Source of the DNA: Alphaproteobacteria bacterium
Lineage (GTDB): Bacteria > Pseudomonadota > Alphaproteobacteria > SMXS01
Length of the DNA stretch: 40,522 nt
Assembly (NCBI GenBank): GCA_004356955.1
Contig: SMXS01000066.1
Location: 1-40,522 of the forward strand
Direction of reading: 5' to 3'
A model generated the notes under the pieces. It searched no databases. It was not told the origin of the DNA and worked only from the letters and a program-made list of their open reading frames with translations. A program made the position numbers and the translations under genes. Positions within the stretch are counted from its first letter, which is position 1. Every line of letters begins with the position of its first letter. This document shows positions 38,488 through 40,522 of the stretch, piece by piece.

Positions 38488-38952
38488 TTAGGCTGGGTAT
38501 ACCAGACCAAGCGTTTCTGCGATCAGGGCAGGGCGGTCCTGACCTTCGATTTCGATCTTAACTTCGTTGATAGACTGGACCGAGCCGTCGGGACGAACGG
38601 TGACTTGCTTGAGGGTTTGGGTGGCGCGAACGCGAGAACCCACAGGGACCATATTGGTGAAACGCACCTTGTTGGTGCCATAGTTGATGCCCCGGGCCAC
38701 ACCATCGATACTCATAATTTGGCCTGTCAGCATGGGCAGCAGCGACAAGGTCAAAAAGCCATGGGCAATCGTCTTGCCGTTTTCCATTTCTTTGGCGGCG
38801 CGTTCAACGTCGACATGGATCCACTGATGATCGCCAGTGGCATCGGCGAACTTATTGATGCGTTCCTGGTCAATTTCGACCCAGTCGGATGAACCGATGA
38901 CTTGGCCTTCGAGGCTGGCTAGATCGTTAATGTGAATAATACGGGGGGCCAT
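38488..38952 (-). CDS. MaoC family dehydratase ((R)-enoyl-CoA hydratase-like)
   Basis: This 154-residue single hot-dog domain protein carries the R-hydratase motif FADATGDHQWIHVD, with catalytic Asp41 and His46, followed by the family's IAHGFLTLSLLPML. It is expected to hydrate trans-2-enoyl-CoA to the (R)-3-hydroxy form; the acyl preference is unknown, and there are no adjacent fatty acid or PHA genes. ATG 38952 follows the AAGGAA ribosome-binding site on the minus strand. Its upstream side faces the MITE-like element. Confidence 0.93.
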   Translation of the reverse strand: MAPRIIHINDLASLEGQVIGSSDWVEIDQERINKFADATGDHQWIHVDVERAAKEMENGKTIAHGFLTLSLLPMLTGQIMSIDGVARGINYGTNKVRFTNMVPVGSRVRATQTLKQVTVRPDGSVQSINEVKIEIEGQDRPALIAETLGLVYPA

Positions 38953-39019
38953 GAGCTTCCTTTCACGAAATTATGTTTTGCGCGTGCACCATAACCTCAC
39001 AAAATACATAAGGTAAAGT

Positions 39020-39286
39020 CTAGGGTCAGGACCCACTAATGAGGCCCATTCTGCGCGAGCAGATTTTGTCAGGGTATAGGAAGAAAGTCGACGCCATATA
39101 TTCATATGGCTAGGCTTACTGACGCATTCCCTGGCAAAGGATGCCGCGCCCTTCGAGTTTACCAAGATTGATCAGGGGCGGCGTCAACAAGGCTTGAAGG
39201 GAAATACCCCATCTGCGCCCTGTTTCCTTGCCCCTGATCAATCTTGGTCAACAGAATTGGACCTCATTAGTGGGTCCTGACCCTAG
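39020..39286. mobile_element. 267-bp MITE-like element with 25-bp terminal inverted repeats
   Basis: Perfect 25-bp inverted repeats end the element (39020-39044 and 39262-39286), each beginning CTAGGGTCAGGACCC, so each tip is itself a short palindrome (GGGTC-AG-GACCC). Inside are a perfect 19-bp inverted repeat (39161-39179 and 39230-39248, ACCAAGATTGATCAGGGGC) and a 7-bp hairpin (GCCATAT 39093-39099 / ATATGGC 39104-39110). No transposase is encoded; a 64-codon minus frame here is not gene-like. CTAG at both tips may be part of the element or a 4-bp target duplication. It fills most of the 354-bp gap between the maoC-like gene and the next lipoprotein gene. Confidence 0.8.
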
Positions 39287-39306
39287 GCGTACGAATAGGC
39301 AGTGAT

Positions 39307-40522
39307 ATGTGTTTTTTTAGGACCTCGTCGATCAACCGTGTTGTGATCATGGCAACGATAGTTGTCGGGTTGCTTGGTGGATGTATCACAAGGACGGCTG
39401 ACGATCTGGCAGACAGAGAATGGGTTGAGCTAAAGTCAGACCACTTCATCGTCTATAGCGAGGTGGGCGAATTCTGGTCGAGACGTATGTTGCAACGTCT
39501 TGAAATCTTTCGATCCTTTGTTATCAGTCACCTGGATCTGGCAGGTGCCGACAACCCCCTGCCATTTCGTATTGTGTTGATGCGCAACGCCAGTTCCTTG
39601 CAGGCCATTGTCCCAAGAACAGACATATTCGGCATGTACCAAACCACATACCAAGGTGGCATGGCACTGGTTGATATGTCAGCACGGGCGCAGGATGGCA
39701 CGAGTTCACTGGAAATAATCTACACGCCTAGCGGACCCATCTACCGGGCTCGAACCGGCACAAGGCCGATCAGCATGGAAGGGGTCTTGCACGAATATGT
39801 GCACCATTTGTTGGCGAATGACACGAGCCGACGGTATCCACTTTGGTTTAACGAAGGCTATGCTGAATATCTGTCGACGTTTGATATTGCCGCCAATGGT
39901 CAGGCCATCGTGGGGCAGGCCCCCATGCATCGCGTCGAGGCGCTACAGAAAGCGCGCTGGATACCCCTTGACCGGCTGTTTCAGGTCAAGGGATATGAAG
40001 AAGGCCACGGATATGGGGATTTTTACGCCCAAGCCTGGGCGGTTGTGCACTATATGCTTGCCGATGCAGAGCGCGCCGAACAGACCGATAGGTTTCTGGA
40101 TCAGCTGAATGAAGGCGAGGATCTGATAGCGGCGTTCGAGGCCTCTTTTGACATGCCACTCCAGCAAATGTCTGCTGGCGCAAGGTCCAAGGCCAAAAAT
40201 CGTCGCACGTCCAGTCGTCGGCTGGACTTCGAAACAGAGATTGCATCGGATGCAGTTCCTCGATTGTTGTCTTTGGACGAACGGTCTGTACTGCTGGCTG
40301 AAATGATCCTGACGTTTTCACCAGATCGTCGGGTGGCGTTGCCGCATCTGCAACAAGCCTTGCAGTACAACGTGGCAAACATTCGTGCCCGGGCGCTGTT
40401 GGCAGGCCTGCATATGTATTATGGAGAAGATCAGTTGGCTCTGGACACGCTGAATGGCGCATCTGACGATGCCATGGACGCCGATATTCAGTGTCAATTT
40501 GGGCACTTCTATGCCGACAAGG
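39307..40522 (+). CDS. lipoprotein zinc metallopeptidase, gluzincin type (3'-truncated by window edge)
   Basis: Open from ATG 39307 to the window end (405 residues visible). A lipoprotein signal is present: RTSSINRVVIMATIVVGLLGGC, with lipobox Cys26. The peptidase motif is HExxH as LHEYVHHLL (His162, Glu163, His166), with the downstream acidic ligand Glu183 in WFNEGYAEYLS. This is the peptidase MA/DUF1570-like arrangement of HExxH plus NEGxAE. The region after about residue 330 is helical and may be TPR-like (LPHLQQALQYNVANIRARALLAGLHM). It is anchored in the envelope; substrate unknown. Its start lies 20 bp after the MITE-like element, with a weak AGG eight bases upstream. Confidence 0.82.
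   Translation, partial: MCFFRTSSINRVVIMATIVVGLLGGCITRTADDLADREWVELKSDHFIVYSEVGEFWSRRMLQRLEIFRSFVISHLDLAGADNPLPFRIVLMRNASSLQAIVPRTDIFGMYQTTYQGGMALVDMSARAQDGTSSLEIIYTPSGPIYRARTGTRPISMEGVLHEYVHHLLANDTSRRYPLWFNEGYAEYLSTFDIAANGQAIVGQAPMHRVEALQKARWIPLDRLFQVKGYEEGHGYGDFYAQAWAVVHYMLADAERAEQTDRFLDQLNEGEDLIAAFEASFDMPLQQMSAGARSKAKNRRTSSRRLDFETEIASDAVPRLLSLDERSVLLAEMILTFSPDRRVALPHLQQALQYNVANIRARALLAGLHMYYGEDQLALDTLNGASDDAMDADIQCQFGHFYADK

Follow-up and report, generated by a model that had tools for sequence, protein, structure and literature searches.

The 267-bp stretch at positions 39020–39286 of the window (the whole 40,522-nt stretch of DNA that was analysed) is an insertion. With a probability of roughly 0.8, we interpret it as a non-autonomous, MITE-like mobile element that entered a YTAR site with duplication of the TA and belongs to a large, old family with a common branched fold. 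The usual definition of a MITE rests on the end sequences that its transposase recognizes. In this family, the end sequences varied by host, whereas the centre, the branched fold and the target site were common to copies from Nitrosomonas to Rhizobium.

Architecture and insertion site of the element

The element was self-complementary over nearly its full length. The predicted fold of the element region had an energy of −166.7 kcal/mol, compared with a mean of −88.2 for shuffled sequences (z −14.9), and none of 200 shuffles equalled it. Terminal inverted repeats of 25 bp (CTAGGGTCAGGACCCACTAATGAGG) were located at 39020–39044 (plus strand) and 39262–39286 (minus strand) with no mismatch between them, in agreement with a preliminary description of this DNA; the left repeat holds the sub-palindrome GGGTC-AG-GACCC. 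The same description had recorded short CTAG tips. These were present, but their nature is that of a YTAR target with the TA duplicated (39021–39022 and 39284–39285), as judged from the YTAR pattern with TA at both ends across copies and from an empty site in a relative (see below), and the element proper spans 39023–39283. The whole element including its target (C + TA ... TA + G) was assigned to the plus strand from its conserved junction, in which TTCTG precedes CAGAA, with the sister copy and the family models as further evidence.

Within the terminal repeats, a TTCTG box (39049–39053) pairs with a CAGAA box (39252–39256), which closes the junction. Enclosed by these boxes, and like them on the plus strand, are arm 1 (39053–39149), with the base GCGCGAGCA / TGCCGCGC and a segment, TTCTGCGCGAGCAGATTTT, that is identical in the Nitrosomonas copies; a possible mini-hairpin (CCCTTCGAG, 39149–39157), for which relatives mostly had CCC-NNN-GGG when alignments were inspected by eye; and arm 2 (39157–39252), detected by repeat search and folding. 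Arm 2 consists of a tip and a 23-nt internal inverted repeat (39157–39179 / 39230–39252, 96%). The 19-bp internal repeat reported earlier is the exact core of this longer repeat, and it represents a single arm of a bigger branched fold that takes up almost the entire element. No transposase gene was present in the element; the frames of at least 50 amino acids touching it (64 and 60 amino acids) both crossed its edges.

According to reading frames and domain searches, the element is flanked by a MaoC-domain gene (38488–38952, minus strand) and a gene for a DUF1570 / M9-like peptidase-like lipoprotein (39307–40521, plus strand) that runs off the window. Its right edge lies 20 bp upstream of the ATG at 39307, the distance given previously. 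In a genome of the same genus (G001), the MaoC–lipoprotein gene pair was kept without the element: the alignment stopped at the insertion point and resumed beyond it. The intergenic space minus the element, counted from the alignment, was approximately 90 bp in both genomes, so the element was added to that space. The preliminary description was therefore wrong in stating that nearly all of the regulatory space had been replaced, since the original DNA of approximately 90 bp is still present on either side of the insertion. The lipoprotein gene is now set approximately 267 bp apart from DNA formerly between the two genes, and an effect of the element on its expression is possible. No sigma-70-like site was found in 38900–39400.

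A sister copy was detected in the host genome (2.19 Mb, 171 contigs) at C54:680–945. It was full length, 72% identical, had the same fold and was located between other genes. The empty site in G001 and this sister copy, both of which the preliminary description had proposed to look for, support its view of a MITE-like insertion free of a transposase, together with the TA duplication at YTAR and the many related copies. They also bear on the reading that the stretch is a conserved, non-mobile regulatory region of the maoC–lipoprotein pair. Its location in a divergent intergenic region, with a start codon 20 bp away, would suit such a role, but the same place is empty in G001 and the C54 copy has other neighbours; the G001 site led us to reject this reading, which is extremely improbable. 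Further copies were absent from 59 relatives of the window's genome, by DNA search and by model, so movement within this lineage is shown only by the vacant G001 site together with the C54 copy. In total, the host genome contained two full copies and approximately 17 solo palindromes.

Family distribution, conserved fold and variable ends

Seven additional genomes from the window's class contained relatives of the element, as did an Afifella MAG, a Nitrosomonas MAG (at approximately 30 places) and 193 plasmid records of the Rhizobium/Sinorhizobium type. A pattern derived from the stretch common to the two host copies matched 29 genome-contig stretches, of which 18 were from one Nitrosomonas MAG and one from the Afifella MAG; the remaining 10 were unrelated, being coding or chance matches by inspection, and were discarded. 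Of these 29 stretches, 17 were verified with the covariance model R1, and two further Nitrosomonas stretches were recognized by eye as shortened copies. In Nitrosomonas sp. HKST-UBA151, the model had 14 hits, and a search with the end sequence from this genome had 71, compared with none for the reversed control. The element has undergone a burst in this genome, where its copies form two sub-families that end in ..CATGA and ..CATGT, and many assembly contigs break inside copies.

From its gene content, the window's class was taken to be the Alphaproteobacteria. Among 385 genomes of this class searched with a second model, nine had a hit at E ≤0.01: the host genome, seven clear others from different families and one weak hit (G159, E 0.008), which was without junction boxes and was dropped. 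The best four candidates per genome were scored in this search, so the copy numbers are lower bounds. With a Rhizobium copy as the query, 408 places were matched in the 193 plasmid records (out of 72,556), mainly from Rhizobium and Sinorhizobium. Copies with one arm missing were also present. Copies on three Rhizobium plasmids (H34, locus L193, and H35 and H37) were approximately 80 bp longer and matched in two pieces; one part seems extended. In Martelella mediterranea, a 'hypothetical protein' annotated over an element copy (NZ_CP020331.1, 58414–58818; L173:2001–2405) is probably no gene. Nothing useful was obtained when the window copy and one Nitrosomonas copy were searched against phage and plasmid DNA, the copy from G375 against plasmid DNA or the Rhizobium copy against phage DNA, and viral contigs had no match to the element.

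The aligned copies had a common plan, consisting of a terminal stem, the closing box TTCTG/CAGAA and two arms with a CCC-NNN-GGG stretch between them. The closing box covaried among copies (TTCCG/CGGAA, GCTGC/GCAGC). Fifteen copies from 11 genomes were aligned with MAFFT on sequence alone. Standard pairs made up 89.4% of the 1192 cells, a percentage biased upward by the prediction of the structure from this same alignment, and double changes were present in 70 of 80 pairs. The covariation score was 0.752, still far above the 0.14–0.19 (maximum 0.185) obtained when the partners were slid. Mean pairwise identity was 0.62–0.68 in the junction boxes and 0.70 in the tip, compared with 0.45 in the ends and 0.40–0.48 across arm 2, distal arm 1 and the ends. 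Between the window copy and the Nitrosomonas copies, 19 junction bases were identical. Within individual copies (29 in all, the Martelella copy being read on the wrong strand), the terminal repeats were complementary at 14–22 of 22 positions, yet they differed between hosts. Two copies in one genome (G327; L157 and L166) had quite different terminal repeats, each internally paired.

Such paired changes could also arise by mutation rather than selection, through template switching or arm conversion in a quasi-palindrome whose fold as such would need no function, a process compatible with a mobile element. The outer ends, expected to be transposase targets, drift in pairs as well, and the strand bias reported below was not significant, both as this mutational route would predict. 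It leaves unexplained why the junction boxes are more conserved than the arms and ends, and why the arm layout was kept over such distances. We regard it as a real possibility, though on the doubtful side.

Conserved junction boxes beside variable arms, the identical junction bases and the very strong covariation would be expected if the element encoded a structured non-coding RNA, with the junction as its functional site and mobility being secondary. On pairs chosen by RNAalifold, a choice that favours G.T, there were 68 G.T against 25 A.C cells. With a strand-neutral choice of pairs, however, the counts were 63 and 47 (p 0.15). In a set that included the Martelella copy in the wrong orientation, 1x1 mismatches gave 49 G.T against 31 A.C, and the sense strand folded better in just 19 of 29 copies. 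No Rfam family matched above its gathering score over the element in the window and 13 other loci, miRNA models and one sRNA model falling far below their cut-offs, and the lack of a sigma-70-like promoter mentioned above also speaks against a transcribed RNA. No significant evidence pointed to selection acting on a single strand or on a folded RNA, and we consider an RNA function unlikely. Our guess is that the junction is conserved because it is needed for mobility, by protein binding or as a DNA fold, and not in the form of an RNA.

Target site, solo palindromes and candidate transposase

In the 34 copies examined, the base left of the TA was Y in 28 of 29 scored cases and the base right of it was R in 29 of 33. 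The right side departed from YTAR in L103, L113, L160 and L168, as did the left side in L160; six other ends were unscorable. The left and right flanking bases varied independently, which fits duplication of TA alone. For a MITE-like element, a transposase made elsewhere would read the tips (TA, then GRG, then the paired stem) and move the element into a YTAR site elsewhere. Because the TA is directly followed by a G of the element, a TAR stop codon hit by an insertion would still read as a TAG stop, so stop codons would be tolerated as landing sites.

Long palindromes are unstable, and we propose that full copies collapse to solo palindromes by deletion between short direct repeats in both ends. 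The 18-bp solo CTAGGGTCAGGACCCTAG had 37 occurrences in the host genome with ≤3 mismatches (counting both strands), compared with none for the reversed control; at one mismatch, it was absent from all 59 relatives. When deletions between 5-bp direct repeats of the two ends were predicted for the window element, two of the three products equalled the 18-bp solo or its complement exactly, while no exact copy of the third, 37-bp product was found. In Nitrosomonas, the sole predicted deletion product, minus its outer bases, was the 30-bp solo present there at two distinct sites.

Of the 22 places other than the window, 17 solos were examined, and in 15 of them the TAG of the solo was the precise end of a frame of at least 90 codons. 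At the same loci, such stops were found at 106 of 476 control YTAR sites, or at 106 of the 232 not deep inside a frame. Solos were thus in excess at stop codons, though much of this follows from where YTAR sites occur. With a looser rule (70 codons), 14 of 34 full or arm-deleted copies had such a stop ≤4 bases from a tip; the window copy was not among them. At C55:8288 and C148:1864 (L048 and L045), two convergent pairs of long frames were observed, with the TAG stops of each pair in one 18-bp palindrome. The solos provide a ready count of long-palindrome collapse and suggest stop codons as a tolerated landing site.

An autonomous parent with the same ends, which the preliminary description had envisaged, could not be demonstrated: the searches revealed no autonomous element whose ends agreed in full, and one IS5-type element resembled the outer 12 bp only. 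This was the only DUF4096 IS5-type IS found in the host genome (C110:315–1148, locus L040), an 834-bp element with DUF4096 and DDE_Tnp_1 domains in two frames. Like the window element (GGGTCAGGACCC at its outer 12 bp, compared with GGGTCTGAACCC / GGGTCTGGACTC), it was flanked by CTAG. These similarities in outer sequence and flanks, together with its transposase domains, would fit an origin of the window element as a deletion derivative of this single IS. Against such an origin, no internal match to the IS emerged when the element was used as a query on the host genome, and relatives with the same core occurred in genomes with other ends and without a DUF4096 gene. The IS may thus at most move the element rather than be its source, and we consider the derivation very unlikely.

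The DUF4096 domain was found in three of ten carrier genomes searched (the host genome, Afifella and G126), and not in the other seven. End pairs around DUF4096 loci gave nothing clear, C67:48859 in the Nitrosomonas MAG, considered as a parent, showed only a one-sided end, and no annotated transposase lay under the match to the Rhizobium end among the best 40 of 165 plasmid records. An IS5-type transposase acting in trans is our reasoned guess for a mobiliser of the element.

If a single transposase mobilised the whole family, ends that vary from host to host would be unusual. This variation, seen even between the two G327 copies, counts against our MITE-like reading of the element. We put forward, tentatively and as a rather doubtful proposal, a class of mobile DNA in which the functional part is the folded multi-arm junction and the terminal repeats are free to change if kept paired. 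Equally tentatively, structure combined with a short tip (TA-GRG), and not an invariant end sequence, might be what allows such elements to spread between bacterial classes. As part of the same conjecture, they might be moved by borrowed local transposases or by one that recognizes both fold and tip, and might leave solos at stop codons on decay. The natural copies allow the question to be asked of whether a transposition system can recognise a shape plus a short tip, and Rhizobium leguminosarum, with many copies on its plasmids, is a workable test host.

Comparison with known systems

MITEs as such are already known, and part of this family may already have a name. No published description of the element family was found in open-licence PMC full text, and papers on rhizobial repeats may overlap with it. 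IS711 and its relatives belong to the IS5 family. In Brucella, IS711 is reported to duplicate the TA of YTAR, as does the present element, and palindromic repeats associated with the IS and a two-frame transposase like that of the C110 IS are described (PMC2266754). The window element differs in having no transposase, and matching full ends were not found; Bru-RS was likened to it by description (PMC2266754).

The Caulobacter CIR repeats are likewise intergenic, have two long inverted-repeat arms and occur in several alphaproteobacteria, but they are approximately 110 bp long, carry GANTC in the terminal loop and have no 5'–3' terminal stem (PMC2229807). GANTC was absent from the window copy and occurred somewhere in 14 of 29 copies. 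Membership in the CIR repeats was rejected, as the ends of the window copy pair over 25 bp and it contains no GANTC. Dozens of structured intergenic repeats (RIME, Sm, ABC) are described for rhizobial genomes (PMC2573895, PMC2245857), and the present family is also abundant there; likened by description, its rhizobial members may already be named among them. Coxiella QMITE2 is described as a MITE that has a partly conserved stem and is related to elements of Bradyrhizobium and Rhodobacter. It was set apart by that description, having a length of 150–190 bp, variable direct repeats of 7–11 nt and a GTAG REP, compared with the TA at YTAR and the other layout found here (PMC5896051).

REPs and REPINs, which are GTAG- or CGTC-tagged hairpins of 20–40 bp (in inverted pairs for REPINs), were rejected as an identity for the element, since its tips are YTAG and the whole forms one branched fold; each of its terminal repeats does contain a short sub-palindrome. 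ERIC, RUP and Correia elements are bacterial TA-type MITEs. Such MITEs resemble the present element in being small and gene-free, with terminal inverted repeats, TA ends, a stable predicted stem and an often intergenic location (PMC10969869, PMC5896051). In contrast to them, the family described here has an internal junction common to hosts of different classes, whereas its terminal repeats are not.
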